From the NCBI RefSeq assembly GCF_029889745.1, contig NZ_CP123639.1, forward strand, positions 1,152,501 through 1,216,500: DNA of 64,000 nt, given 5' to 3'. Made by a program: the position numbers and the translations under genes. The DNA comes from Ligilactobacillus faecis. GTDB taxonomy: Bacteria; Bacillota; Bacilli; Lactobacillales; Lactobacillaceae. Below, piece by piece: positions 16,775 to 56,294 of this stretch. Positions within the stretch are counted from its first letter, which is position 1. Each line of letters begins with the position of its first letter. The notes under the pieces were generated by a model. It ran no database searches, was not told the DNA's origin, and saw nothing but the letters and a program-made list of their open reading frames with translations.

Positions 16775-16818
16775 ATCAATATGTAATGCTATATGAGAGA
16801 TATAGCCTGTCCTTTCTT
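16775..16818 (-). promoter_or_regulatory. Split ribosome-binding-site leader, short form, before LCP gene
   Basis: On the minus strand: AAGAAAGGAC, then AG, then a 7-bp hairpin GCTATAT-ctctc-ATATAGC, then 13 nt, then ATG. There is no purine-rich site between the hairpin and the ATG. The same AAGAAAGGA...CTATAT...ATATAG order is seen before dut, radA, secE and mprF. Confidence 0.6.
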
Positions 16819-23484: not shown

Positions 23485-23545
23485 TGTAATGGCAATAACT
23501 ACTAAAATGAATAAGTTCGATACACGAAATACTCAACCACTGATC

Positions 23546-23683
23546 TTTAAGTCTTTCAAACCAATAGTGTTTAATGTAGTCTTGGTTTATGACTTAAAAC
23601 TATGGGAAGTAGTTGTGTTCGACAATGCAAACAAGGGAGGAAAGCTATATTTTTGACTACATTAGATATAGCACGTTTTAAAC
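23546..23683 (+). promoter_or_regulatory. Structured split ribosome-binding-site leader of dut
   Basis: Hairpin P1: TTTAAGTC/GACTTAAA (23546-23553 with 23591-23598) and AAACCA/TGGTTT (23558-23563 with 23583-23588). Its loop strand AATGTAGTC (23573-23581) is complementary over 9 bases to GACTACATT (23655-23663). GGGAGGAAAG is followed by CTATAT (23645-23650), complementary to ATATAG (23666-23671), 12 nt before the ATG. No Shine-Dalgarno sequence lies between ATATAG and the ATG. This copy differs in sequence from the others but keeps the pairings; it lacks the P3 hairpin. Confidence 0.55.
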
Positions 23684-24220
23684 ATGAAAAGAGGATTTGA
23701 AGTCGTTTCAAAGTATGCTACTGAAGAGATCGAATTACCAGTGCGCGCCACAAAAAACGCAGCGGGGTATGATTTTTGTGCGGCTAAAGATTTTGTTTTA
23801 CCAAGTATTTGGCGCCGGGATCTTTTAAAGATCTTGTGGGCTTTACGCAAACAAAAAGAATTTACCCAAAGTGAATTAACAGAGGCACAAGCTGTTTTGC
23901 GTCCTTATTTAGTTCCTACTGGGATCAAAGCTTATATGCAACCCGATGAATTCTTGATGTTAGCCAATCGTTCGAGCAATCCGTTAAAATACGGCTTGAT
24001 CTTGCCAAATGGTGTCGGGATCGTAGATGCTGACTACTATAATAACGCTAACAATGAAGGTGAGATCTTCTTTCAATTAGTCAATTTTGGACTAACGAAT
24101 AAAGTGATCAAAAAAGGTGAACGTTTAGGGCAAGGGATCTTTTTACCATATTTGTTGGCAGATGCTGAAAAAGCCCCATTACAAGAGCGAACAGGTGGGT
24201 TTGGTTCATCTGGGCGCTAA
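23684..24220 (+). CDS. dut: dUTP diphosphatase (trimeric dUTPase)
   Basis: Hydrolyses dUTP to dUMP and pyrophosphate, keeping uracil out of DNA. Motif 1 is AGYDFCAAKDF, motif 2 NRSSNPLKYGL, motif 3 NGVGIVDADYY, motif 4 GERLGQGIFLPY and the glycine-rich motif 5 ERTGGFGSSGR. At 178 residues it is longer than E. coli Dut because of an insert after motif 1 (residues about 40-75), as in many lactobacilli. The ATG has no Shine-Dalgarno site at normal distance; see the structured leader. Confidence 0.93.
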   Translation: MKRGFEVVSKYATEEIELPVRATKNAAGYDFCAAKDFVLPSIWRRDLLKILWALRKQKEFTQSELTEAQAVLRPYLVPTGIKAYMQPDEFLMLANRSSNPLKYGLILPNGVGIVDADYYNNANNEGEIFFQLVNFGLTNKVIKKGERLGQGIFLPYLLADAEKAPLQERTGGFGSSGR

Positions 24221-24316
24221 TGATTTAAGATTATCTTATAAATTTTTTTAGTAAAATTCGGGTATACTGTGTACTCAAAAGAATATGTAGTGCGCAGGCA
24301 ACTGGATCGAACTGCT

Positions 24317-24449
24317 GATATCCACGAGAAAGATAAAATGTGATGGATATCGCTTTGCATGAAATAAGCTCAAGAAAGGAAAACTATATTGCTTTCTCAA
24401 ATAACTTCATCAAGAAGTATTTGCTCACATTTGATATAGAAAAAAATAA
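24317..24449 (+). promoter_or_regulatory. Structured split ribosome-binding-site leader of radA
   Basis: Hairpin P1: GATATCCA/TGGATATC (24317-24324 with 24344-24351), loop with AAATGTGA (24336-24343) complementary to TCACATTT (24425-24432). P2: AGAAAG/CTTTCT (24373-24378 with 24392-24397); its loop holds CTATAT (24384-24389), complementary to ATATAG (24434-24439). P3: ACTTC/GAAGT (24404-24408 with 24414-24418). GTG follows ATATAG by 10 nt with no Shine-Dalgarno site between. A -10 box TATACT lies at 24263-24268. Confidence 0.65.
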
Positions 24450-25820
24450 GTGGCAAAACCAAAAAGTAAATATGTTTGTCAAAATTGTGGCTATGTCTCA
24501 CCGCGCTACTTAGGCCGCTGTCCAAATTGCGGTGAGTGGAATACTTTAGTCGAAGAAGTCGAACAAAAGACAGCAACTTTAAAAGCGACACCACGGGTCA
24601 CCTTAGCAGGCACAAAGACTGCGCCCCAAAAGATCGAAGAAGTTACGGTCGCCAAGACGCCACGGATCGATGCTAAAAATGCAGAATTGAATCGCGTTTT
24701 AGGCGGAGGGATCGTTCCAGGTTCAATGGTCTTGATCGGGGGCGATCCAGGGATCGGTAAGTCAACGTTGCTTTTACAAGTTTCAGGAAGCTTAGCTGAT
24801 CAAGGTGGAAAATTACTATATGTTTCAGGAGAAGAAAGTGCTAGTCAGATCAAACTCCGTGCTGACCGGCTCGGTGTTTCTGGGAGCGATTTTTATTTAT
24901 ATCCTGAGACAGATATGGGCAGTATTTTACAAAATATCGAAGAATTAAAGCCAGACTACGTTGTGATCGATTCGGTCCAAACGATGCAGATGCCAGAGAT
25001 CACTTCAGCAGTCGGGAGTGTGGCGCAGATCCGTGAAGTTACCGCAGCTTTGATGCAGATCGCTAAAACAAATGGGATCACGATCTTTATCGTCGGTCAT
25101 GTGACGAAAGGGGGAGCGATCGCAGGACCAAAGATCTTAGAGCATATGGTCGATACGGTCTTGTACTTTGAAGGTGATATGCACCGGTCATTTCGGATCT
25201 TACGGGCTGTCAAAAATCGTTTTGGTTCAACAAATGAGATCGGTGTTTTTGAGATGCGTGATGGGGGATTAGTCGAAGTACCGAATCCATCAGAGATCTT
25301 TTTAGAAGAACGCTTGAGTGGAGCAACTGGTTCAGCCGTTGTTGTTTCACTTGAAGGAACGCGGCCGATCTTAGCTGAGATCCAAGCACTTGTGACGCCA
25401 ACCGCCTTTGGCAATGCTAAGCGCACAACGACAGGACTTGATCATAATCGGATCTCACTGATCATGGCCGTTTTAGAAAAACGTGCGGGGCTGTTGTTGC
25501 AAAATCAAGATGCTTATCTTAAAGCCGCTGGAGGCGTTAAGTTAGATGAACCTGCGATCGACCTAGCTGTAGCAATGAGTATCGTGTCTAGTTATCGCGA
25601 TGCCCAAACTGCGCCTGACGACTGCTTTATCGGAGAACTGGGTCTGACTGGTGAAGTCAGACGCGTCAATCGGATCGATGCGCGGATCGCAGAAGCTGCT
25701 AAATTGGGGTTCAAGCGCGTCTTTGTCCCACAAAACAATCTAACTGATCTAGAGTTACCCTCAAATATTCAAGTTGTCGGTGTCAAAACACTTAGTGAAG
25801 CATTACGACATGTTTTTTGA
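24450..25820 (+). CDS. radA: DNA repair protein RadA (branch migration ATPase)
   Basis: RecA-like ATPase that processes recombination intermediates. In order: N-terminal zinc finger ([18 protein letters not shown]), ATPase with Walker [15 protein letters not shown], the RadA-specific [12 protein letters not shown] motif, and a Lon-like C-terminal domain. 456 residues. The start is GTG because the product then begins [14 protein letters not shown], as RadA proteins do; no Shine-Dalgarno site precedes it at normal distance. First gene of the conserved radA-yacL-gltX-cysS block. Confidence 0.95.
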
Positions 25821-33243: not shown

Positions 33244-36200
33244 ATGGTTTCAAAAAATAATAAAGATCTGTATATTCAGAAATCTGCTAACCGGGCTTCT
33301 AAATATACGATCAAAAAGTTAAGTATCGGTGTAACTTCCGTTCTGGTAGGGACGACCTTTTTCCTCGGTTCCGCTACAGGCGCAAGTGCTTCCGAACAGA
33401 TAACTGAACAACAAACAGCGATCGTTAAGTCAGCTGATCAAACTTCCACAGACGCTGATCAACAGTCACTAAAAAATGAAGCTGAAGCATCAACTTCCAC
33501 AGAATCTTCCACTACTGATGCAACAAAGGCTTCCGATGTGACTGAAACTTCCACAGACGCTCAAACAGAAACAGCTGCTGAAACGTCATCAACTTCCACA
33601 AAATCTTCCACAGATGACACTAGCTCAGCAGAAGGATCCTCCGCAAGCAAAGAAAATGAAAATACGCAAGTAGACAACAACACACAAGATAATACTGATG
33701 TTGAAAAAGAATCAACAACTGAGTCTACATTATCCACTAATGATGAAGCAAAATCAGCTGTAAGTCAAGTAAATACTGCGAATACAGTTGAGTCAAATGC
33801 TCAAACAGAAGAAAATAAAGAAGCCACACCAGTTGCAACCTTTAGAGCGGCAACAGTAACCGAAAATGATAGTACTTCCACAACTGTCAATAACTGGACT
33901 GGACTTATCAATGCTTTGAATAATAGTCGCTACCAAACGATCAACGTTGACGGGACGATCAGCGCAAGGGGAACAGGTACTGTTTATGGTAATAACCGTA
34001 GTGTTGTCATCAAAGGTGCTAATCAAAATTCAGGGATCAATTTTGGTTCGACACCGTTAGTAGCTAACGGAAATTGGAACTTAACGTTTGAAAACTTGAA
34101 TTTAACAACAACAAGTGCTGACGGTACGGTAACTTTTGGTAACACTTATGGTACAAGTACTGTAACTTATAAAGATGTAAGGCATTCTGGTGCTTCACTT
34201 TATGGTGGTAGCGGAAATGCTAATGTTGTGATCGATGGAACAACGACTTCAACGGTTTCTTCTGCAAGTAAACCAACAGTTAACACATATAAGAAAAACG
34301 GAAATGATGCAAACATCTGGGGTGCTAAGTCAGTAACAGTTGCAAATGGAGCTAACTTTACGCTCAACCGTTCTGCGATCGGTGATGGTATCAACTTACC
34401 AGATGGTTCTACAGTTCGTGTTGGTGATAACGCAACGATGACCGTTAACATGAACACAAATAACGCTACAGATAGTGCGCGTTATCATGATGCTGGGATC
34501 TTCATGTTGAATGGTGGTAACTTCTTGACTGGACGTAACTCAACTGTCAATATGAACACAAGCATCGGTCAAGCTGTTTCGATCGGGGCTGATCGTCCAG
34601 CAATCGGAATTACAGATAGCGATCGTTTTGGCGGTTATGGTGCTCGCTCAAGAAATGACGGCCCAACAGCGGTAACGTTTGGCGAATATTCGACCTTTAA
34701 CTTTGCTGGACGCGATGGCCTCATTTTAGGTAACAATGCTAACTTTACATCTGGTGAATACTCTAACGTTCATTTCCAAAATAATGGACGTGGGGTCGCT
34801 TTAGATCTAGCTAACAACTCAAACATCGTGATCTCTAAGCACTCAAATACTTTATTTGAATCAAAAGGTAAGACAGGTACGTCCGGTAGTTATGACGGTT
34901 ATAACTATATTGGTGTCAATGAAGGTGGTAATATCACGATCGATGAATATGCTACTTTCCGTGTGATCCTGACGGGCCGTGGTGATAATCCATGGGATGA
35001 TGTTATTTCTTTAGATTCACAAAATGCTAATACAGCAGCAGCGTTTACTTCTAAAAAAGGTGCTGTTGTTGATATTCGTGATGATAACACAAACTTTTAT
35101 GCCGAATTGATCTCGTTCCCATTAGGGGCAGCCAAATCTGTTATCGATATTCAAGACCCGCTCTACCTTAACTTAGAGCGCTTTTCCAATGGCGGGGCTG
35201 TAACTGGTTGGATGCCAGTCGGTGGTTTGAATATTAAAGATACAGGTCCTAAATTTAATGCAAACTTGGTTTATATGGCGGGAACAAAAGGTACCTTCAG
35301 AGTTTCAGGGACTGATTATGTTGTTTATCAGAAAGTTAAGCGGGGTGATAATAAGCAACCCGCGGATTTGATCTGGTTAAATATTAATTCGGCAAACTTT
35401 GATAAAGATGGATTTAGATCTAGAAACAAGTATGATAATGGGGTAAATCCAGACTTATCGATCAGTGGTATTGGATTGACTGCTGGTGTAGCTGCTAATA
35501 ATATTTACGAACAAGGAGATGTGAGTCCAGATGTCCAACGGGGAAACAATGGTGTAGCACCATATTATGGTCTTTCTACCATGCGTGCTTCTCATCAGAT
35601 CTGGTTCCCTCATACGACGGAGACTCAAGCGGCTGGTCAACATCAAAACGTGATCAAATATGTTTACGAAGATGGTACAGAGGCAGCACCAACAGTCACG
35701 CAAACAGTTGATTTGACACGCGATATCACTCTTGATCTGACTCCAGAACAAATCAAGAGTGTTAAGGAGTACGGAGCTACCCATACTGCAGATCAGATCT
35801 TAGATTATATCAAGAATTTATATATTGTTTCTAAAGATAGCGGTTGGCAAGTTGCAAATGGTGTCAACACGAAGACGGCGTATGATGCTGTAGCTACACC
35901 AGAATTAGCTGGTTACACAGCAAGCATCCAATCAACGAACGCAAATGGTGTAAAGGTCGGTGGTGATGCTTCTTCGATCCATGCAACATTGGATATGCCA
36001 AACGATTCAGTTGTTGAAAATGGTCAATTGAGTGAAGCTTACAAGAACAATGGTGGCGTTGCGGTAATGCCAGCTAACTACGAAACAGTTGTTGTTTATA
36101 AGAAAGTAGTTCAAAACCAACCTGTGACGATCATTTACCAGGATAAGACTGAAAACAACAAAGTTTTGGATACTGATAAACTTGAAGGTAAGCCAGGAAC

Positions 36201-39200
36201 TGATTTAAATTATTCAACAGCAACGAAGATCGAAAACTTTATTAATAAGGGTTATAAGTTAGTTAGTGATGGTGTTCCAACTAATGCTACGTTTGGGGAT
36301 GAACCTATGACTTATTATGTTACTTTAGAACATGATATTGCTCCAGTTGGACCAAACGATCCGCACGAACCAGATACACCGATCAATCCTAACGACCCAG
36401 ATGGACCAAAATGGCCAGCTAAAGATCAATACAGTAAAGACTACACATCAACGATCACTTATGTTGATGAACAAGGTAACAAAGTTGCTAGTGACAATGT
36501 GCAAACTTCTACATGGACAAGGACGCTTCAAATCGATAAGGTAACAGGAGAGATTCAAAATCCTAACGAAGCATGGACAGCTGACAAGTCACGATATGAT
36601 GCAGTCAAATCTCCAGTTGTTGAGGGGTACTATGCTGATAAAGCAATGGTAAACGCTAAAGACACAGTGCAAGAAAACTTGACTGAACAAGTCGTTTATC
36701 GGCCATTAGGTAAGATCATTCCAGTTGATCCAAATGGAAACCCAATTCCAGATGCACCAACACCACAATATCCAAATGATCCAACTGACCCAAGCAAGAC
36801 AGTTCCAGATCAACCAGTACCAGAGATCCCAGGTATGACACCAGAAGTACCAAGTGTGACGCCAGAAGATCCTGGTAAGGATACAAAAGTTGTTTACAAC
36901 TACGATGATCAAAAAGCAACGATCAACTATATCGATGAAACAACAGGGCAACAACTTGCATCTGACAATGTTTCAGGTAAGAGCAACGCTAAGATCGAAT
37001 ACTCAACTGCTGCTAAGATCAAAGATTTGACTGACAAGGGTTATGTGCTTGTAAGTGATGGTTTCCCAGTTGATGCAATGTTTGATAACGATAAAAACAA
37101 AGATCAAGTTTTTGAAGTTATCTTGAAACACGGTGAAAAACCAGTTGGACCAAACGATCCACACGAACCAGATACACCGATCAATCCTAACGACCCAGAT
37201 GGACCAAAATGGCCAGCTAAAGATCAATACAGTAAAGACTACACATCAACGATCACTTATGTTGATGAACAAGGTAACAAAGTTGCCGATGACAATGTGC
37301 AAACATCAACATGGACGCGGACATTGATCATTGACACAGTGACAGGAGAAGTCAAGAACCCTAATGAAGCTTGGACAGCTGACAAGTCACAATACGATGC
37401 AGTCAAATCTCCAGTCGTTGAAGGCTACTACGCTGATAAAGCAGTCGTAAACGCTAAAGATACAGTACAAGAAAACTTGACTGAACAAGTCGTTTACCGG
37501 CCGTTAGGTAAAATCGTTCCAGTGGATCCAGAAGGAAACCCAATTCCAAACGTACCAAACCCACAATATCCAAATGATCCAACTGACCCAAGCAAGACTG
37601 TGCCAGACCAACCAGTACCAGAGATCCCAGGTTACCAACCAGAAGTACCAAGTGTAACACCAGATAAACCAGGTGAAGACACACCGGTGATCTATGTGCC
37701 AGTTGTGGAAGACAAGTATAGCTTACTTGAACGCTTTGTTGACGAAGAAGGAAACGAAGTATCCGCAACAGTTGTCAAAGGAACAGATTACAAAGAAGGT
37801 ACAGAGTACGACGTCACAGGCGATGCCAAAGTCATCAATGGTTACTATTTGAAGGCAACTTCAGACAACGCTAAAGGTACATTTGGTAAAGACAACGTCA
37901 CAGTGACCTTTACGTATGCTAAGTTAGGTAAGATCATTCCAGTTGATCCAAATGGAAACCCAATTCCAGATGCACCAAACCCACAATATCCAAATGATCC
38001 AACTGACCCAAGCAAGACAGTGCCAGATCAACCAGTACCAGAGATCCCAGGTATGACACCAGAAGTACCAAGCGTGACGCCAGAAGATCCTGGTAAGGAT
38101 ACAGAAGTTGTTTACAACTACGATGATCAAAAAGCAACGATCAATTATATCGATGAAACAACAGGGCAACAACTTGCATCTGACAATGTTTCAGGTAAGA
38201 GCAACGCTAAGATCGAATACTCAACTGCAGCTAAGATCAAAGAGTTGACTGACAAGGGTTATGTACTTGTAAGTGATGGTTTCCCAGCTGATGCAATGTT
38301 TGATAATGATAAAAACAAAGATCAAGTTTTTGAAGTTATCTTGAAACACGGTGAAAAACCAGTTGGACCAAACGATCCACACGAACCAAACACACCGATC
38401 AATCCTAACGACCCAGATGGACCAAAATGGCCAGCTAAAGATCAATACAGTAAAGACTACACATCAACGATCACTTATGTTGATGAACAAGGTAACAAAG
38501 TTGCCGATGACAATGTGCAAACATCAACATGGACGCGGACATTGATCATTGACACAGTGACAGGAGAAGTCAAGAACCCTAATGAAGCATGGACAGCTGA
38601 CAAGTCACAATATGATGCAGTCAAATCTCCAGTCGTTGAAGGCTACTACGCTGATAAAGCAGTCGTAAACGCTAAAGATACAGTACAAGAAAACTTGACT
38701 GAACAAGTCGTTTACCGGCCATTAGGTAAAGTTATTCCAGTGGATCCAGAAGGAAACCCAATTCCAAACGTACCAAATCCACAATACCCTAATGATCCAA
38801 ACGATCCAACTAAGGGTGGAACAACGCCAGTACCAGAGATCCCAGGCTACCAACCAGAAGTACCAAGTGTAACACCAGATAAACCAGGTGAAGACACACC
38901 AGTGATCTATGTGCCAGTTGTGGAAGACAAGTATAGCTTACTTGAACGCTTTGTTGACGAAGAAGGAAACGAAGTATCCGCAACAGTTGTCAAAGGAACA
39001 GATTACAAAGAAGGTACAGAATACGACGTCACAGGTGACGCTAAAGTTATCAATGGTTACTACTTGAAAGCAACTTCAGACAACGCTAAAGGTATATTTG
39101 GTAAAGACAACGTTACAGTAACCTTTACGTACGCTAAGTTAGGTAAGATCGTTCCAGTTGATCCAAATGGAAATCCAATTCCAGATGCACCAACGCCACA

Positions 39201-42200
39201 ATATCCAAACGATCCAACTGACCCAAGTAAGACAGTACCAAACCAACCAGTACCAGAGATCCCAGGTTATCGTCCAGAAGTGCCAACTGTAACACCAGAT
39301 AAACCAGGTGAAGATACACCAGTGATCTATGTGCCAGTTGTAGAAGACAAGTACAGCTTGACAGAACGTTTTGTTGATGAAGAAGGAAACGAAGTATCTG
39401 CTTCTGTAACTAAAGGTACAGACTACAAAGAAGGTACAGAGTACGATGTTACAGGCGACGCCAAAGTTATCGATGGCTACTACTTGATCAAGACTTCAGA
39501 CAACGCTAAAGGAACATTTGGTAAAGATAATGTCACAGTGACCTTTACGTATGCTAAGTTAGGTAAGATCATTCCAGTTGATCCAAATGGAAACCCAATT
39601 CCAGATGCACCAACACCACAATATCCAAATGATCCAACTGACCCAAGCAAGACAGTGCCAGATCAACCAGTACCAGAGATCCCAGGTATGACACCAGAAG
39701 TACCAAGTGTGACGCCAGAAGATCCTGGTAAGGATACAAAAGTTGTTTACAACTACGATGATCAAAAAGCAACGATCAACTATATCGATGAAACAACAGG
39801 GCAACAACTTGCATCTGACAATGTTTCAGGTAAGAGCAACGCTAAGATCGAATACTCAACTGCTGCTAAGATCAAAGATTTGACTGACAAGGGTTATGTG
39901 CTTGTAAGTGATGGTTTCCCAGTTGATGCAATGTTTGATAACGATAAAAACAAAGATCAAGTTTTTGAAGTTATCTTGAAACACGGTGAAAAACCAGTTG
40001 GACCAAACGATCCACACGAACCAGATACACCGATCAATCCTAACGACCCAGATGGACCAAAATGGCCAGCTAAAGATCAATACAGTAAAGACTACACATC
40101 AACGATCACTTATGTTGATGAACAAGGTAACAAAGTTGCCGATGACAATGTGCAAACATCAACATGGACGCGGACATTGATCATTGACACAGTGACAGGA
40201 GAAGTCAAGAACCCTAATGAAGCATGGACAGCTGACAAGTCACAATACGATGCAGTCAAATCTCCAGTCGTTGAAGGCTACTACGCTGATAAAGCAGTCG
40301 TAAACGCTAAAGATACAGTACAAGAAAACTTGACTGAACAAGTCGTTTACCGACCATTAGGTAAAGTTATTCCAGTGGATCCAGAAGGAAACCCAATTCC
40401 AAACGTACCAAATCCACAATACCCTAATGATCCAAACGATCCAACTAAGGGTGGAACAACGCCAGTACCAGAGATCCCAGGCTACCAACCAGAAGTACCA
40501 AGTGTAACACCAGATAAACCATGTGAAGACACACCAGTGATCTATGTGCCAGTTGTGGAAGACAAGTATAGCTTACTTGAACGCTTTGTTGACGAAGAAG
40601 GAAACGAAGTATCCGCAACAGTTGTCAAAGGAACAGATTACAAAGAAGGTACAGAATACGACGTCACAGGTGACGCTAAAGTTATCAATGGTTACTACTT
40701 GAAAGCAACTTCAGACAACGCTAAAGGCAAATTTGGTAAAGACAACGTCACAGTAACCTTTACGTACGCTAAGTTAGGTAAGATCGTTCCAGTTGATCCA
40801 AATGGACAACCAATTCCAGATGCACCAACGCCACAATATCCAAATGATCCAACTGACCCAAGTAAGACAGTGCCAGATCAACCAGTACCAGAGATCCCAG
40901 GCTATCGTCCAGAAGTGCCAACTGTGACACCAGATAAACCGGGTGAAGACACACCAGTGATCTATGTGCCAGTTGTGGAAGACAAGTACAGCTTGACAGA
41001 GCGCTTCGTAGACGAAGAAGGTAACGAAGTATCTGCTTCTGTAACTAAAGGAACAGACTACAAAGAAGGTACAGAGTACGACGTCACAGGCGATGCCAAA
41101 GTTATCGATGGCTACTACTTGAAGGCAACTTCAGACAACGCTAAAGGAACATTTGGTAAAGACAACGTCACAGTAACCTTTACGTACGCTAAGTTAGGTA
41201 AGATCGTTCCAGTTGATCCAAATGGACAACCAATTCCAGATGCACCAACACCACAATATCCAAACGATCCAACTGACCCAAGTAAGACAGTGCCAGATCA
41301 ACCAGTACCAGAGATCCCAGGCTATCGTCCAGAAGTGCCAACTGTGACACCAGATAAACCAGGTGAAGACACACCAGTGATCTATGTGCCAGTTGTGGAA
41401 GATAAGTACAGCTTGACAGAGCGCTTCGTAGACGAAGAAGGTAACGAAGTATCTGCTTCTGTAACTAAAGGAACAGAGTACAAAGAAGGTACAGAATACG
41501 ACGTCACAGGTGATGCCAAAGTTATCGATGGCTACTACTTGAAGGCAACTTCAGACAACGCTAAAGGTACATTTGGTAAAGACAACGTTACAGTGACCTT
41601 TACGTACGCTAAGTTAGGTAAGATCGTTCCAGTTGATCCAAATGGAAAACCAATTCCAGATGCACCAACACCACAATATCCAAACGATCCAACTGACCCA
41701 AGTAAGACAGTGCCAGATCAACCAGTACCAGAGATCCCAGGCTATCGTCCAGAAGTGCCAACAGTTACGCCAGATAAACCAGGTGAAGATACACCAGTGA
41801 TCTATGTGCCAGTTGTAGAAGACAAGTACAGCTTGACAGAACGCTTCGTTGATGAAGAAGGTAATGAATTATCTGCTTCTGTAACTAAAGGAACAGATTA
41901 CAAAGAAGGTACAGAATACGACGTCACAGGCGATGCTAAAGTTATCGATGGCTACTACTTGAAGGTAACTTCAGACAACGCTAAAGGTACATTTGGTAAA
42001 GACAACGTTACAGTAACCTTTACGTATGCTAAGTTAGGTAAGATCATTCCAGTTGATCCAAATGGAAAACCAATTCCAGATGCACCAACGCCACAATATC
42101 CAAACGATCCAACTGATCCAAGTAAGACAGTGCCAGACCAACCAGTACCAGAGATCCCAGGTTATCGTCCAGAAGTACCGACTGTGACACCAGATAAACC

Positions 42201-43305
42201 AGGTGAAGATACACCAGTGATCTACGTACCAGTTACACCTGAAAAACATGTTCAAACAGCTAAGATCGTTTATGTTGATACAAAGACTGGTAAAACACTT
42301 GAAACTGATACGGTAACGGGTGGATCAGGCGATAAGATCGATTACTCTACAACACCACGGATCGATGAGTTGATCAACAAAGGCTACGTTTTAGTAGAAG
42401 ATGGCTTTACGAATGCTGGAACTCCAGTTTATGATGATAACGATGATGAAGATCAAGTTTTCGTTGTTAAATTAGATCATGGTACAGCACCAGTTGGACC
42501 AAACGATCCACATGAACCAGGAACACCGATCAATCCAAATGATCCAAATGGACCAAAATGGCCAGCTAAAGATGGGTATACAAAACAATATACTTCAACG
42601 GTTCATTTTGTAGATGAAAATGGTAACCAGTTATACGATGATGATGTTCAAACATCCACATGGACCCGGACATTGATCATTGATAAGGTTACTGGTGAAG
42701 TCTTGAATCCAAATGAAAATTGGAATTCCGATATCGATAGCTATGCAGATGTCAAAGCTCCTGTCATCGAAGGATACTATGCAGATCGTGCAAATGTTCC
42801 AGGGCAAGAAGCACAACAACAAGATATCGAAAATACAGTGACCTACAGACCGATCGGCAAGATCATTCCAGTGGATCCAAATGGAAATCCAATTCCAAAT
42901 GTACCAACACCTCAATATCGAAATGATCCAAACGATCCAACTAAGGTCATTGTTACAAACACACCAGATGTCCCAGGTATGGTACCAGAAACAACAAGTG
43001 TGACACCAAGTGAGCCCGGTGTTGATACGCCAGTTGTTTACCATGTAGTTGAACAACCAGCTCAACCAACACCAAAAGCTCCTGAAACACCAAAAGCACC
43101 AAATGCAACACCAGTTAATAACATTCAAACACCGATCGAAGAAACTCCAGCAACTTCTGAAGTGACTGAAACTAAGGCGAATGAATTGCCACAAACAGGT
43201 GATAAGCAAAATAACACGCTAGCTGCTGTAGGTGCTTCTATCGTAGCTGGTCTCTTAGGACTTATCGGCTTCGCCAAGAAGAAAGATGACGAAAAAGAGA
43301 TCTGA
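33244..43305 (+). CDS. Giant LPxTG-anchored mucus-binding (MucBP-type) adhesin
   Basis: 3353 residues. Order: YSIRK-like signal peptide (YTIKKLSIGVTSVLVG) ending in an A-S-A region near residue 50; Ser/Thr/Glu-rich stretch to about 205; a unique region of about 750 residues with many Asn/Gly-rich beta-strand-like segments (possible beta-helix); then, from about residue 955, repeats of three kinds: A, MucBP-like (KATINYIDETTGQQL), five copies; B (DYTSTITYVDEQGNKV), five; C (SLTERFVDEEGNEVSA), seven, joined by Pro-rich linkers (IPVDPNGNPIPDAP). The C-terminus has LPQTG, a hydrophobic helix and KKKDDEKEI. Sortase would link it to peptidoglycan. GGAGAG precedes the ATG. Binding to mucus or host glycans is inferred from the family. 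Confidence 0.93.
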   Translation: MVSKNNKDLYIQKSANRASKYTIKKLSIGVTSVLVGTTFFLGSATGASASEQITEQQTAIVKSADQTSTDADQQSLKNEAEASTSTESSTTDATKASDVTETSTDAQTETAAETSSTSTKSSTDDTSSAEGSSASKENENTQVDNNTQDNTDVEKESTTESTLSTNDEAKSAVSQVNTANTVESNAQTEENKEATPVATFRAATVTENDSTSTTVNNWTGLINALNNSRYQTINVDGTISARGTGTVYGNNRSVVIKGANQNSGINFGSTPLVANGNWNLTFENLNLTTTSADGTVTFGNTYGTSTVTYKDVRHSGASLYGGSGNANVVIDGTTTSTVSSASKPTVNTYKKNGNDANIWGAKSVTVANGANFTLNRSAIGDGINLPDGSTVRVGDNATMTVNMNTNNATDSARYHDAGIFMLNGGNFLTGRNSTVNMNTSIGQAVSIGADRPAIGITDSDRFGGYGARSRNDGPTAVTFGEYSTFNFAGRDGLILGNNANFTSGEYSNVHFQNNGRGVALDLANNSNIVISKHSNTLFESKGKTGTSGSYDGYNYIGVNEGGNITIDEYATFRVILTGRGDNPWDDVISLDSQNANTAAAFTSKKGAVVDIRDDNTNFYAELISFPLGAAKSVIDIQDPLYLNLERFSNGGAVTGWMPVGGLNIKDTGPKFNANLVYMAGTKGTFRVSGTDYVVYQKVKRGDNKQPADLIWLNINSANFDKDGFRSRNKYDNGVNPDLSISGIGLTAGVAANNIYEQGDVSPDVQRGNNGVAPYYGLSTMRASHQIWFPHTTETQAAGQHQNVIKYVYEDGTEAAPTVTQTVDLTRDITLDLTPEQIKSVKEYGATHTADQILDYIKNLYIVSKDSGWQVANGVNTKTAYDAVATPELAGYTASIQSTNANGVKVGGDASSIHATLDMPNDSVVENGQLSEAYKNNGGVAVMPANYETVVVYKKVVQNQPVTIIYQDKTENNKVLDTDKLEGKPGTDLNYSTATKIENFINKGYKLVSDGVPTNATFGDEPMTYYVTLEHDIAPVGPNDPHEPDTPINPNDPDGPKWPAKDQYSKDYTSTITYVDEQGNKVASDNVQTSTWTRTLQIDKVTGEIQNPNEAWTADKSRYDAVKSPVVEGYYADKAMVNAKDTVQENLTEQVVYRPLGKIIPVDPNGNPIPDAPTPQYPNDPTDPSKTVPDQPVPEIPGMTPEVPSVTPEDPGKDTKVVYNYDDQKATINYIDETTGQQLASDNVSGKSNAKIEYSTAAKIKDLTDKGYVLVSDGFPVDAMFDNDKNKDQVFEVILKHGEKPVGPNDPHEPDTPINPNDPDGPKWPAKDQYSKDYTSTITYVDEQGNKVADDNVQTSTWTRTLIIDTVTGEVKNPNEAWTADKSQYDAVKSPVVEGYYADKAVVNAKDTVQENLTEQVVYRPLGKIVPVDPEGNPIPNVPNPQYPNDPTDPSKTVPDQPVPEIPGYQPEVPSVTPDKPGEDTPVIYVPVVEDKYSLLERFVDEEGNEVSATVVKGTDYKEGTEYDVTGDAKVINGYYLKATSDNAKGTFGKDNVTVTFTYAKLGKIIPVDPNGNPIPDAPNPQYPNDPTDPSKTVPDQPVPEIPGMTPEVPSVTPEDPGKDTEVVYNYDDQKATINYIDETTGQQLASDNVSGKSNAKIEYSTAAKIKELTDKGYVLVSDGFPADAMFDNDKNKDQVFEVILKHGEKPVGPNDPHEPNTPINPNDPDGPKWPAKDQYSKDYTSTITYVDEQGNKVADDNVQTSTWTRTLIIDTVTGEVKNPNEAWTADKSQYDAVKSPVVEGYYADKAVVNAKDTVQENLTEQVVYRPLGKVIPVDPEGNPIPNVPNPQYPNDPNDPTKGGTTPVPEIPGYQPEVPSVTPDKPGEDTPVIYVPVVEDKYSLLERFVDEEGNEVSATVVKGTDYKEGTEYDVTGDAKVINGYYLKATSDNAKGIFGKDNVTVTFTYAKLGKIVPVDPNGNPIPDAPTPQYPNDPTDPSKTVPNQPVPEIPGYRPEVPTVTPDKPGEDTPVIYVPVVEDKYSLTERFVDEEGNEVSASVTKGTDYKEGTEYDVTGDAKVIDGYYLIKTSDNAKGTFGKDNVTVTFTYAKLGKIIPVDPNGNPIPDAPTPQYPNDPTDPSKTVPDQPVPEIPGMTPEVPSVTPEDPGKDTKVVYNYDDQKATINYIDETTGQQLASDNVSGKSNAKIEYSTAAKIKDLTDKGYVLVSDGFPVDAMFDNDKNKDQVFEVILKHGEKPVGPNDPHEPDTPINPNDPDGPKWPAKDQYSKDYTSTITYVDEQGNKVADDNVQTSTWTRTLIIDTVTGEVKNPNEAWTADKSQYDAVKSPVVEGYYADKAVVNAKDTVQENLTEQVVYRPLGKVIPVDPEGNPIPNVPNPQYPNDPNDPTKGGTTPVPEIPGYQPEVPSVTPDKPCEDTPVIYVPVVEDKYSLLERFVDEEGNEVSATVVKGTDYKEGTEYDVTGDAKVINGYYLKATSDNAKGKFGKDNVTVTFTYAKLGKIVPVDPNGQPIPDAPTPQYPNDPTDPSKTVPDQPVPEIPGYRPEVPTVTPDKPGEDTPVIYVPVVEDKYSLTERFVDEEGNEVSASVTKGTDYKEGTEYDVTGDAKVIDGYYLKATSDNAKGTFGKDNVTVTFTYAKLGKIVPVDPNGQPIPDAPTPQYPNDPTDPSKTVPDQPVPEIPGYRPEVPTVTPDKPGEDTPVIYVPVVEDKYSLTERFVDEEGNEVSASVTKGTEYKEGTEYDVTGDAKVIDGYYLKATSDNAKGTFGKDNVTVTFTYAKLGKIVPVDPNGKPIPDAPTPQYPNDPTDPSKTVPDQPVPEIPGYRPEVPTVTPDKPGEDTPVIYVPVVEDKYSLTERFVDEEGNELSASVTKGTDYKEGTEYDVTGDAKVIDGYYLKVTSDNAKGTFGKDNVTVTFTYAKLGKIIPVDPNGKPIPDAPTPQYPNDPTDPSKTVPDQPVPEIPGYRPEVPTVTPDKPGEDTPVIYVPVTPEKHVQTAKIVYVDTKTGKTLETDTVTGGSGDKIDYSTTPRIDELINKGYVLVEDGFTNAGTPVYDDNDDEDQVFVVKLDHGTAPVGPNDPHEPGTPINPNDPNGPKWPAKDGYTKQYTSTVHFVDENGNQLYDDDVQTSTWTRTLIIDKVTGEVLNPNENWNSDIDSYADVKAPVIEGYYADRANVPGQEAQQQDIENTVTYRPIGKIIPVDPNGNPIPNVPTPQYRNDPNDPTKVIVTNTPDVPGMVPETTSVTPSEPGVDTPVVYHVVEQPAQPTPKAPETPKAPNATPVNNIQTPIEETPATSEVTETKANELPQTGDKQNNTLAAVGASIVAGLLGLIGFAKKKDDEKEI
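36118..42860 (+). repeat. Long in-gene repeat array of the adhesin
   Basis: Nearly identical DNA blocks recur at offsets of 1218 bp (e.g. 36706 to 37924), 1635 bp (37924 to 39559) and, in the distal part, 420 bp (40769, 41189, 41609, 42029). The 1635-bp offset equals 1215 + 420 bp, that is one A-B-C block plus one extra C unit. Synonymous differences between copies are few, which suggests recent homogenisation. The outermost copies (near 36118 and 42240) are more diverged. Confidence 0.9.
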
Positions 43306-46608: not shown

Positions 46609-46759
46609 GTTATCTTTAGCGAAAGAGATAAATGTGAGTTGAAGATAATGCGTTATAAAATAGATAAGAGTTAAGCATTAAGAAAGGAAAAACTATAGTT
46701 CTTTCTCAGATATAGCGGATAGCTACATCTGTTCACATTTGGTATAGGGGTGATCGAGC
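46609..46759 (+). promoter_or_regulatory. Structured split ribosome-binding-site leader of secE
   Basis: P1: TTATCTT/AAGATAA (46610-46616 with 46642-46648); loop strand AAATGTGA (46630-46637) complementary to TCACATTT (46733-46740). P2: AGAAAG/CTTTCT (46681-46686 with 46701-46706), its loop holding CTATA (46693-46697), complementary to TATAG (46743-46747). P3: CAGAT-a-TAGC with GCTA-c-ATCTG (46707-46716 with 46722-46731). Unlike the other copies, GGGGTGA after TATAG offers an ordinary ribosome-binding site 7 nt before the GTG. Confidence 0.65.
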
Positions 46760-46927
46760 GTGAAATTCATTAAAAGTGTGATCCAAACGATGAAAGATAC
46801 TACTTGGTTGAACGCGAAAGAAACAAGACGAGATACAACAACGGTTGTCGTCTTATCGTTAGCCTTTGCAGTATTTTTTGGAGTAGTTGATTATGCTGCC
46901 CAAGCATTGATCAACTTACTTGTTTAA
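46760..46927 (+). CDS. secE: Preprotein translocase subunit SecE
   Basis: 55-residue single-span SecE, partner of SecY and SecG in the Sec translocon. An amphipathic N-terminal helix (SVIQTMKDTTWLNAKE) leads to the membrane segment (VVVLSLAFAVFFGVVDYA). GTG start preceded by GGGGTGA. Too short for most ORF callers; position between rpmG and nusG confirms it. Confidence 0.93.
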   Translation: MKFIKSVIQTMKDTTWLNAKETRRDTTTVVVLSLAFAVFFGVVDYAAQALINLLV

Positions 46928-49991: not shown

Positions 49992-50009
49992 ACTAAAGGT
50001 CAATATATG

Positions 50010-50128
50010 ATTCTACCTAAGACTCAGGTGGCGCAAGCCTTAATATCCTGCCGAGGAGTAATTGTTACGGTTATTCTCTCTGTGTCTTGGTGGACATGGA
50101 GCTTTTTTATTTTAAAAGAGCTTCGACA
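50010..50128 (+). promoter_or_regulatory. L10 leader RNA
   Basis: About 120 nt of structured leader before rplJ with the CTGCCGAGGAGTAATTG element typical of L10 leaders, ending in GGAGC plus T6. Binding of the L10-L12 complex to such leaders represses the operon; here a terminator-like AGC-T6 end suggests attenuation. Confidence 0.75.
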
Positions 50129-53498: not shown

Positions 53499-53708
53499 TT
53501 TGACCAGAGAAAGATCCTAAAAATGTGTGATGGTCAAATGTTGTTTTAATATAATATAGTTCAGACTGTTATCCAACGTGTGGAAATTTGAGCTTACACG
53601 TTATAATCAAGCGAAGAAGTAAAATCAAGAAAGGAAAAACTATATTTCTTTCTCGAGTATACTTATTTGAGTATATTTACCCACATTTTATATAGCTGGT
53701 ATCTGCTA
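53499..53708 (+). promoter_or_regulatory. Structured split ribosome-binding-site leader of mprF
   Basis: P1: TTTGACCA/TGGTCAAA (53499-53506 with 53531-53538); loop strand AAAATGTG (53520-53527) complementary to CACATTTT (53682-53689). P2: AGAAAG/CTTTCT (53628-53633 with 53648-53653); its loop holds CTATAT (53640-53645), complementary to ATATAG (53690-53695). P3: TATACT/AGTATA (53658-53663 with 53670-53675). An extra hairpin AACGTGT/ACACGTT lies between P1 and P2. The ATG follows ATATAG by 13 nt without Shine-Dalgarno site. This fills the long non-coding stretch before mprF. Confidence 0.65.
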
Positions 53709-56294
53709 ATGAAGCAAATATTCCAACGGAGTAAAGACTTCGTTGAACGCCGCTTTACTTTTCTCAAATTGATCTTTGTCCTGTCGGTCTTGATCTTTGT
53801 TACTTTTGAAGTAGGGCGGATCTTTAAAGAAGTCGATTGGACGAAAGTCAAATACGGTTTAGAAGCCCAGTCGACATTAAGTATCGTTTCCATGCTCTTT
53901 TTAGGGATCGTTGCTGTTAGTCCGATGTTGATCTATGATTTTTCGATCGTCAAATTTCTACCAGACAAATATAGTAAGTGGTATATCATCCGAAGTGGGT
54001 GGATCACAAATACTGCCACCAATATTGCCGGGTTTGGTGGTTTTTTAGGCGCCGCTTTGCGAGCTGATTTTTATCATAAAAATGCGACTAAAAAACAAGT
54101 CGTTTATGCTCTCTCAAAGATCGCCCTCTTTTTATTAGCTGGGCTTTCGATCTATTGTTTAGTCTCGTTAGGCTTGATCTATTGGTTAGACTTAGGCGAT
54201 CATCTCAAGCGTTATTGGATCTGGTTAGTAGCTGGGGGAGCGTATTTTCCGATCCTTTTTCTGACGACTAAGATCAAAAGTGGTGATTTTTTCAAAGATC
54301 TGACCTTGAAACGCGAGCTTGAACTAGTTTTAGGTTCGCTTTTAGAGTGGGGCTTTGCCGGGACATTTTTTGTTTTTATCGGACATGAACTAGGCATACA
54401 TACAAATATTGCAGCTGTTTATGCTCTTTACTTTACAGGGTCGGTCTTAGGGATCGTTTCAATGGTCCCAGGTGGTCTAGGATCATTTGATGTTTTTATG
54501 ATGCTTGGGCTCTTACCATTTGGGGTCACGACTGAACAAGCTGTGATCTGGTTATTGTTTTTCCGGCTATTTTATTACATCGTCCCATTTGCATTAGGGT
54601 TAACGGCTTTTATCCATTATGAAGGGGGGCAGGTCAACCAAAAACTCGACGGGATCCCTAAAGTTTTATTGCAAAAGATCTCGCATACTTTGATCACGCT
54701 GTTTATGTATGCTTCGGGGATCTTGCTTTTACTTGAAGCAGCGGTTCCAAATTGGGCTTATTCTAATTCAGTTTTAGCGCGACTATACCCATACACATTC
54801 TTATTTATCAATCAGATGACTGATATCATCTTTGCTTTTACTTTGATCGGGATGGCGCGGGGGATCCAAGCTAAAGTCGCCAAAGCCTACTATCCGACGC
54901 TTGTGATCTTATCGATCGGGATCATCAATACGCTCTGGCGGGTCTATACGCCAAGTTTAGCGCTCTTTTTGTGCTTGATTTTGATCATGGTCATTTTATC
55001 GCGAAAAGAGTTATATCGAAAACAGTTGCACTATTCGATCGGCAAATTGCTCGTCGATAGTTCGATCTTTGTTGTAACTTTCTTTCTTTATGCGATCGTT
55101 GGGATCATCAATTCTCCAAGCTATGTGCACCACCATCGGATCCCATCGGTCTTGTTATTTCCAGCCCAAGGTATTTGGTTGTCTGGCTTTATCGGACTTT
55201 TACTAGCTGCGATCGTCCTACTAGTCATTGTGACTTATCTTTGCAGTGGGAAAGATCCCTTTGAAACAAAGACTTTTGACAAACAAAAAGTTCAGCAAGT
55301 CATCGCTGAATTTGGTGGGAATGAAGTTAGTCACCTAGCCTTTTTACGAGATAAAGAGCTTTATTTCTATGAAGTCGATGCTAAGCCAGTCGTCTTTTTC
55401 ATGTATCGCATCAAAACTGATAAGTTGATCATTATGGGAGAACCAGTCGGGGATCCGACTTATTTCCAAGCAGCTGTCAAAGATTTTATCCAAAAAGCTG
55501 ACTTATATGACTATCAACTTGTCTTTTATGAGATCAATGAGCGCTTTACCATGATGCTCCATGAATTTGGATTTGATTTTATCAAGACTGGTGAAGAAGG
55601 GCTCGTTAAATTGAGTGACTTTACGTTACAAGGTAAAAAGCGTCGAGCTCAACGAGCTTTGATGAATAAATTTGACCGTGAAGGCTATGAGTTTTCTTTT
55701 ATTGAACCGCCATTTACAACTGAGCAGATGCAAGAATTAAAAGCTGTTTCAGATAGTTGGTTAGGTAAGCAAGTTGAAAAAGGCTTTTCTCTAGGCTTTT
55801 TTGACGAAGAATATCTTAACGAAGCCCCGATCTGTATCGTTACAGATCAAGAACAAAAGATCGTAGCCTTTGCTTCGATGATGCCAATGCGAGAAAACGT
55901 CTTGTCGATCGACTTGATGCGCCATAGTAAAGATGCACCCTCTGGGATCATGGATAAGATCTTTATCAGCTTATTTGAATACGGTAAAGAACATGGCTAT
56001 GAATATTTTGATATGGGGATGGCGCCGTTATCGAACGTGGGTGAATCGCGCTTTAGCTTTATCGGCGAACGCGTAGCACGCTATATTTATGAATATGGTG
56101 ATCGCTTCTATGCTTTCCAAGGCTTGCGTTCGTATAAAAATAAATATGTCACAAAGTGGAATTCTAAATATACCGCTTATCGGAAGCGCAGTTCGCTAGT
56201 CGATGCAATGATCTTAGTTACCCTGACAGTCAACCAAAAGCATATCGAAAATAAGCCTAAGAAATTTACGCTCCTACCTTCATTTTTACAATAA
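53709..56294 (+). CDS. mprF: Phosphatidylglycerol lysyltransferase MprF
   Basis: 861 residues. The N-terminal ~520 residues form many membrane segments (flippase part, with SMVPGGLGSFDVFMMLG), and the C-terminal ~330 residues form the cytosolic DUF2156/GNAT-like synthase domain that transfers Lys from Lys-tRNA to phosphatidylglycerol (GKKRRAQRALMNKFDREG, later YFDMGMAPLSNVGES). The product lowers surface negative charge and protects from cationic peptides. The upstream open frame runs into the structured leader, so this ATG (MKQIFQRSKD) is taken as start. Confidence 0.92.
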   Translation: MKQIFQRSKDFVERRFTFLKLIFVLSVLIFVTFEVGRIFKEVDWTKVKYGLEAQSTLSIVSMLFLGIVAVSPMLIYDFSIVKFLPDKYSKWYIIRSGWITNTATNIAGFGGFLGAALRADFYHKNATKKQVVYALSKIALFLLAGLSIYCLVSLGLIYWLDLGDHLKRYWIWLVAGGAYFPILFLTTKIKSGDFFKDLTLKRELELVLGSLLEWGFAGTFFVFIGHELGIHTNIAAVYALYFTGSVLGIVSMVPGGLGSFDVFMMLGLLPFGVTTEQAVIWLLFFRLFYYIVPFALGLTAFIHYEGGQVNQKLDGIPKVLLQKISHTLITLFMYASGILLLLEAAVPNWAYSNSVLARLYPYTFLFINQMTDIIFAFTLIGMARGIQAKVAKAYYPTLVILSIGIINTLWRVYTPSLALFLCLILIMVILSRKELYRKQLHYSIGKLLVDSSIFVVTFFLYAIVGIINSPSYVHHHRIPSVLLFPAQGIWLSGFIGLLLAAIVLLVIVTYLCSGKDPFETKTFDKQKVQQVIAEFGGNEVSHLAFLRDKELYFYEVDAKPVVFFMYRIKTDKLIIMGEPVGDPTYFQAAVKDFIQKADLYDYQLVFYEINERFTMMLHEFGFDFIKTGEEGLVKLSDFTLQGKKRRAQRALMNKFDREGYEFSFIEPPFTTEQMQELKAVSDSWLGKQVEKGFSLGFFDEEYLNEAPICIVTDQEQKIVAFASMMPMRENVLSIDLMRHSKDAPSGIMDKIFISLFEYGKEHGYEYFDMGMAPLSNVGESRFSFIGERVARYIYEYGDRFYAFQGLRSYKNKYVTKWNSKYTAYRKRSSLVDAMILVTLTVNQKHIENKPKKFTLLPSFLQ

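Follow-up and report, generated by a model that had tools for sequence, protein, structure and literature searches.

Five genes in the stretch of Ligilactobacillus faecis DNA analysed here (the window, 64,000 nucleotides) start behind a recurring leader, and such leaders are almost certainly internally deleted remnants of IS607-type (TnpA + TnpB) transposons inserted in the Shine-Dalgarno sequence (SD) of the gene that follows. The leaders keep both transposon ends, tnpA and tnpB are lost, and relatives mostly carry the empty site, as found for the 17 genes that we compared. As an explanation of the whole, we consider it probable that an IS607-type remnant lies in the SD, that its RNA fold rebuilds the ribosome-binding site (RBS), and that the two ends persist. 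A split RBS brought together by RNA folding, as the earlier note on this DNA had proposed, is still the best reading of the leaders.

All five leaders of that note, before dut, an LCP gene, radA, secE and mprF, were found in the window. The left end of the element is a hairpin (P1) with the loop halves a and b; the right end consists of an SD, the P4 5' strand CTATAT, the P3 hairpin and the P4 3' strand ATATAG, together with the strands a' and b'. The features are given below by window coordinates and strand.

24317-24351, + strand: P1 hairpin of the radA leader, the transposon left end, which also lies directly 5' of tnpA in complete insertion sequence (IS) copies; stem GATATCCA/TGGATATC, with arms that covary across copies
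24326-24333, + strand: half a of the radA P1 loop, GAGAAAGA
24336-24343, + strand: half b of the radA P1 loop, AAATGTGA
24372-24439, + strand: right end of the radA leader
24372-24380, + strand: element-borne SD of the radA leader, AAGAAAGGA
24384-24389, + strand: radA P4 5' strand, CTATAT
24392-24398, + strand: radA a' strand, CTTTCTC, partner of P1-loop half a or, alternatively, of the SD
24398-24423, + strand: radA P3 hairpin, read by eye, with arms that covary across copies
24425-24432, + strand: radA b' strand, TCACATTT, partner of P1-loop half b
24434-24439, + strand: radA P4 3' strand, ATATAG, with which the element finishes on the right (as ATATAGCAG in IS copies)
24450-25820, + strand: radA, GTG start at 24450, without local SD (TIGR00416, 645.7 bits)
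23558-23588, + strand: P1 of the dut leader, AAACCAA/TTGGTTT, read by eye
23572-23581, + strand: segment TAATGTAGTC in the dut P1 loop, complement of GACTACATTA in the insert
23633-23671, + strand: right end of the dut leader, with SD GGGAGG, CTATAT, b' GACTACATTA and ATATAG
23684, + strand: ATG start of dut (dUTPase, PF00692)
16789-16818, - strand: leader of the LCP gene (LCP domain, TIGR00350), an SD followed by a CTATAT-CTCTC-ATATAG hairpin
46611-46747, + strand: secE leader, with P1 at 46611-46647 and the right end at 46680-46747; GTG start at 46760 (TIGR00964)
53500-53695, + strand: mprF leader, with P1 at 53500-53537 and the right end at 53627-53695; ATG start at 53709

P1 occurs in four copies, as had been described; in the LCP leader it was looked for and none was seen. 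The SD of AAAGGA type that had been ascribed to the leaders does not hold for dut, whose SD is GGGAGG. Four of the five starts had been said to lack a nearby SD, and the local SD energies of radA (-2.4 kcal/mol), dut (-1.5), the LCP gene (1.1) and mprF (-5.4) are indeed weak or none, while secE keeps a good site (GGGGTGATC, -16.0 kcal/mol). These energies are for the duplex with the presumed 16S 3' end.

The earlier note knew of no described RNA family with this layout, and a search of 23500-24520 against Rfam came back empty up to E=5, as did one over the window leaders at gathering score. The leaders are ends of an IS607-type transposon: near-identical copies adjoin the 3' end of tnpB as the right ends of IS copies and P1 is the left end, which led us to drop the idea of a riboswitch regulon or of a new RNA family standing by itself. 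Five complete copies in the host genome (G000, 2.38 Mb; loci L192, L193, L194, L197 and L198) have the order P1, tnpA, tnpB, right end ATATAGCAG. The intact TnpA frame of L246 (genome G002) carries an N-terminal MerR-type HTH (PF00376) and a C-terminal serine-recombinase domain (PF00239) and scores 226.3 bits against the IS607 transposase model NF033518 (cutoff 110); once tnpA was read, IS607 replaced the label IS200/IS605 given from tnpB alone. TnpB matches PF07282 and PF01385 (OrfB/TNB domains) and NF040570 (249 bits, cutoff 100), and stays below the cutoff of the narrower IS607_TnpB model NF038280 (115.6 bits against 350). Right-end features are common to tnpB-bearing copies of G000, G002, G012, G020 and G021. 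Copies grade from the complete IS through L040, with a tnpB tail that appears degenerate by eye, to P1 plus right end, and the transposon origin is established.

The host genome holds seven open tnpB frames of this element type (389-399 aa) and 13 further tnpB matches with frames of 311-446 aa. In all five complete host copies the tnpA frame is interrupted and the tnpB frame is open over 389 codons, as if TnpB had been retained and TnpA not. The Transposase-1 RNA, RF03014, is a hairpin that L193 (72.4 bits; the one complete copy scanned) and L297 carry directly 5' of their right ends, and it lies outside the leader; the right end of a complete copy closes the tnpB/RF03014 region, where the TnpB guide RNA is expected. 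Among the 20 loci scanned, RF03014 reached the gathering score only in L297, a copy that is not followed by a gene. Because it was not found at that score in the other 19 loci, TnpB-guided regulation by the leaders is not favoured.

As for the target, the left junction reads GGAG in seven of nine loci, namely the five complete host copies, L242 (G012) and L244 (G021), the last two being partial copies with no tnpA frame of 120 codons; the sequences of L245 and L246 begin inside the element, and their left flanks are thus absent from this count. AG is read at both junctions, consistent with no target-site duplication when the boundary is set by eye. Joining the flanks gives AAAAAAGGAG followed by GCATTTG-ATG in L244 and GGTGGGAG followed by AAACA-ATG in L197, both ordinary SD-start arrangements. 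In L198 and L242 the insertion site is ATGGAG, where a reading frame begins, and no gene start was seen at the junctions of L192, L193 and L194. The target is therefore GGAG, and SDs are a frequent place of insertion, though only one among others. The published target of IS607 is GG or (G)GG (PMC6188088, in excerpt), and the TAM of IS607-family TnpB is 5'-AGGAG in 18 of 22 strains (PMC11061315, in excerpt); the AGGAG TAM matches the SD core, and the published targets fit the GGAG junctions.

The pattern AAAGGAN{2,8}CTATAN{1,30}TATAG has 22 matches in the host genome and its reversed control 0, and for the N{31,60} form the figures are 36 and 2; the matches exceed chance. After three overlaps they make 55 distinct sites, of which 8 are right ends of IS copies and 47 are remnants, dut bringing the remnants to 48. 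Pattern matches in G012, G014, G021, G022 and G030 only supplied 36 remnants of relatives, and the resulting counts over 84 copies retain L233 and L237, which may be chance matches. From the 84 remnants, 50 right-end cores were drawn for a covariance model: 11 were set aside (eight G022 near-twins of G014 copies, dut, L233 and L237), short inserts were excluded, and L203 and L241 were dropped from the remaining 52. The covariance-model search suggested in the earlier note was productive, with at least 75 matches in the host genome, at least 27 in G014, 26 in G022, 26 in G021 and 9 in G012, and at least 4, 3, 2, 1 and 1 in five further Ligilactobacillus genomes; all are lower bounds, as at most 150 first-look candidates were scored per genome, of 1,367 in the host. 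Among the best 150 candidates per genome, 16 of the 26 Ligilactobacillus genomes had no match. A survey of 201 genomes of the family, with 25 candidates scored per genome and stricter filters, found a match in nine, four of them Ligilactobacillus including the host. Beyond this genus, the family has right-end matches in L243 (G030), with a start codon 12 nt on, and L322 (G083).

The non-IS copies that we examined in the host genome number 68, including the five of the window: the 48 pattern copies and 20 found by the model, the latter taken from the 64 of 75 matches listed, three listed model-only matches being left out. Directly behind 65 of the 68 stands a start codon, assigned as an open frame of at least 38 codons with preference for an ATG 8-17 nt away. 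Across the 84 remnants, the gap between SD and P4 has a median of 4 nt (5-95%: 3-5) and that between P4 and the start a median of 12 nt (5-95%: 9-16), and the element SD lies about 75-90 nt 5' of the start in long copies. The offset from P4 to the start in the host is 8-16 nt in 46 pattern copies and 31 nt in two (L021 and mvaS), and that of L021 becomes 13 nt with its longer right end (L050). Eighteen of the 20 model-found copies precede a start codon 6-14 nt past P4; L297 and L307 have none behind them and also carry the weakest element SDs (-5.6 and -7.9).

To place the insertion relative to the SD, 17 remnant-led host genes were compared with their orthologs in four relatives (45 sequences). 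The local SD is stronger in the ortholog for 15 of the 17 genes, with medians of -10.2 kcal/mol in the orthologs and -4.7 in the host (p=0.003, Wilcoxon test). The exceptions are secE, which in the host keeps GGGGTGATC, and rodA, whose G021 leader by eye resembles a remnant too; rodZ of G021 also has a remnant, and the mvaS site of G021 is weak (-5.4). The secG start reads AAGGAGGTACATACT-TTG in G021 and ATATAGTAG-GTACAAAAGA-TTG in the host, and that of ftsH AAGGAGGAACTCC-ATG in G014 and ATATAGCGG-GAAATCC-ATG in the host. The radA gene of Ligilactobacillus murinus, whose RadA is 89% identical, starts as GAGGGGGGCAATT-ATG without the element, and the old SD, GAGGGGGGC in L. murinus, has decayed to GTGCGCAGGC in the host when aligned by eye. 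Over the 9 nt before the start there is a slight similarity to the ortholog, with 3.59 identities against 2.84 (p=0.01). Over all 84 remnants the local SD has a median of -3.7 kcal/mol and the element SD of -10.3, and the 48 host remnants differ from 20 control genes chosen by hand from window ORFs (local SD median -9.35; p=5e-8). Both the position in the SD and the missing local SD of most copies are thus established. Several of the remnant-led genes are normally essential (serS, parC, murA, adk and ftsH, named by eye from their N-termini, and secE, identified also by TIGR00964), and their translation must therefore work.

The P1 and P3 stems had been noted to differ in sequence while keeping their complementarity, and the P1 loop to pair with a strand of the insert. 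Both observations are borne out by covariation. We placed the P1 loop by consensus and permuted the partners; the loop was located in 54 of the 84 copies and missed in 30, including dut, L036 and L039, where it is visible by eye. For each of the following pairings, none of 20,000 permutations scored as high as the strands' own partners: the P1 arms (own 16.54 vs swapped 10.27, n=54), the P3 arms (15.63 vs 10.29, n=52), b-b' (18.10 vs 14.90, n=54) and, as a second loop pairing added here, a-a', which joins the 5' half of the loop to the pyrimidine strand after CTATAT with a modest excess (15.25 vs 13.21, n=50). The control pairings gave p=0.89 (a-b') and p=0.04 (b-a'). G022 is a near twin of G014 and the rows of these tests are thus not independent; within the host genome alone, b-b' (n=27) reached p<5e-5 and a-a' (n=23) p=5e-5. 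In orthologous leaders both strands change together by eye, b/b' being ATGTGAC/GTCACAT in the host and ATGTGAG/CTCACAT in G021 for D-lactate dehydrogenase, and AAATGTGT/ACACATTT in G014 and AAATGTGAA/TTCACATTT in G021 for mvaD.

P4 is near-invariant in the pattern-selected copies, where no pair is changed on both sides, and evidence for its pairing therefore comes from the 20 model-found copies. Compensatory changes are seen by eye in L302, L313 and L316 (CTATC/GATAG) and in L308 (CTGTAT/ATACAG), counted as three cells; two P4 pairs show changes on both sides, 95.7% of the cells are paired, and L314 breaks one pair. Covariation also appears over the whole structure, where the model-found alignment scores 0.289 vs 0.113 (0 of 500 shuffles); this alignment follows the model to which it was fitted, and two of its members are weak additional matches. 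In the pattern-selected alignment, partners slid by one column score higher (0.217) than the true ones (0.169), probably because P3 is poorly aligned. The preference of P1, P3, a-a' and b-b' for their own partners, together with the compensatory changes in P4, argues strongly for an RNA fold under selection.

The compensatory changes support the earlier proposal that CTATAT pairs with ATATAG, which would place the SD near the start, but that P4 achieves this alone is not supported. Folded alone and nested, the right end forms P4 with a probability >0.5 in 29 of 84 copies, comprising 12 of the 22 with short inserts and 17 of the 62 with long ones (dut, 0.998; LCP gene, 0.90). The other 45 long copies stay below this threshold, and in 34 of them the a' region takes the SD as its partner (mean probability >0.4). 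The energy of a-a' at least equals that of SD-a' in 32 of 46 copies (medians -6.7 and -5.8 kcal/mol), and in 40 of the 46 the pseudoknotted sum, taken without a pseudoknot penalty, is lower than the minimum of the nested fold (median -8.0 kcal/mol). P1 seems to be needed for P4 in long copies, and the predicted energies support, though they do not prove, a role of P1 in keeping a' off the SD. The connectivity of P1, P3, a-a' and b-b' would correspond to a four-way junction closed below by P4. After folding, the SD-start distance would be roughly 16 nt plus the helix, which is longer than usual.

We infer the following course of events. An IS607-type transposon would enter after GG(G)AG in the SD of a gene and part the old SD from the start codon. 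The right end would supply an SD of its own (as AAGAAAGGA in radA) for the ribosome to use, with the P4 5' strand (CTATAT) within about 4 nt of it and the P4 3' strand (ATATAG) about 12 nt before the start. Pairing of P4 would fold away P3, a' and b' and set the spacing; loop half b of P1 would pair with b', and half a would take a', which otherwise covers the SD, thereby relieving the masking. The SD and the start codon would then flank a compact RNA fold. While tnpA and tnpB are lost, the two ends would stay since the gene depends on them, such dependence being the simplest reason for their retention. On balance we lean, with less assurance than for the explanation as a whole, towards the fuller statement that a transposon family targets the SD core, that its two ends encode a four-way-junction pseudoknot rebuilding the RBS, that the P1 loop mimics the SD and captures the anti-SD strand, and that insertion is thereby neutral and the element becomes indispensable, decaying to its RBS-forming ends in dozens of genes.

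The same energies could suit a regulatory leader (riboswitch, thermometer or protein-bound RNA) in which a' masks the SD (OFF) until P1 takes a' and P4 forms (ON), so that one signal acts on many genes. SD-a' and a-a' are close in energy (n=46), and when only the right end is folded, masking of the SD (>0.5) is predicted for 31 of the 62 long copies. We find this unlikely, as the genes look functionally unrelated and the set varies between species, which random insertion into SDs would give, and no conserved pocket-like sequence beyond the pairings was seen in the leaders.

Ordinary MITE-like IS607 remnants, with the structure kept for transposition or as TnpB guide RNA and with no role in translation, would likewise share their right-end features with the tnpB-bearing copies of the five genomes named above; SD, P4 and P3 are present in the tnpB-bearing G002 and G020 copies, where they may serve the guide RNA, RF03014 precedes the right end of L193, and seven tnpB frames are open in the host. 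IS607-family TnpA acts on double-stranded DNA, however, which leaves the covarying stems unexplained; RF03014 is found at gathering score only in L297 of the 20 loci, yet P1 at the opposite end covaries with the right end; and nearly all non-IS host copies (65 of 68) stand directly before a start codon, mostly without a local SD. This reading is about as unlikely as the regulatory one. That the old SD-start spacing returns because the RNA loses the element by IStron-like splicing, or because ribosomes bypass it, is highly improbable, for although IStrons at GG-containing sites pair their end inverted repeats (PMC4227781, in excerpt) and left and right ends pair here too, Rfam scans of the window, L193, L040, L037 and the 20 loci found no group I intron or other ribozyme, and the old SD of radA has decayed while the element SD stays strong.

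Rebuilding of the RBS by the remnant's fold, the reading that we prefer, is a likely function of the leaders and has a precedent in T4 genes 38 and 25, where RNA structure shortens the SD-AUG distance from 22 to 5 and from 27 to 11 nt (PMC3014915, in excerpt). Like these genes, the leaders have a distant SD that would be drawn to the AUG by intervening structure, long SD-AUG spacing and, secE excepted, no other SD, and the short copies (LCP gene, dut) look alike. In contrast, the T4 cases are single phage genes with a simple hairpin, whereas the present leaders serve dozens of chromosomal genes and originate from a transposon, and the long copies differ by a pseudoknotted fold and an upstream hairpin.

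IStrons of group B are IS607-type. They resemble the present element in their GG-containing sites, in ends that pair in the RNA and, as proposed here, in an insertion rendered harmless at the RNA level (PMC4227781, in excerpt), but they splice by a group I intron, whereas none was detected in the complete L193 or in the remnant loci and translation initiation is proposed to be rebuilt instead. Our best reading is that the insertion splits the RBS and that the host tolerates it through an RNA fold which restores the site, so that the element would be to translation what the IStron is to splicing. IS607 TnpB systems share the TAM AGGAG, equal to the SD core, and a pseudoknotted guide RNA that ends directly before the guide; in the main text of PMC11061315 the terms Shine, ribosome and start codon do not occur, and its excerpts describe no such leaders. 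In the abstracts and excerpts of the open-access papers searched, we found no earlier description of a transposon that sits between an SD and its start codon and restores the site.

If true, RBS rebuilding would add a third form of coexistence between mobile element and host to the two of keeping clear of genes and of splicing out: to target the RBS and supply a replacement. The AGGAG motif of TnpB elements in the IS607 family would gain a meaning, essential genes would be seen to rely for their translation on RNA that comes from a transposon, and over 60 split RBSs with compensatory changes would form a natural series for the limits of SD-start distance.

A gene that by eye is MazF/PemK-like also has an element leader (L312), with P4 shifted to TATATAA/TTATATA. 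The mvaS leader of G021 (L278) by eye shows AAAGGTG and then, ahead of the start codon, a small hairpin of another kind, which may be a split SD of unrelated origin. Elsewhere in the window, a ribosomal protein L10 leader (RF00557, 74.4 bits) lies at 49998-50117, and an ORF of 3353 aa at 33244-43305 has near-identical stretches around 37.7, 38.9 and 40.6 kb and perhaps, as a guess, encodes a repeat-rich surface protein.
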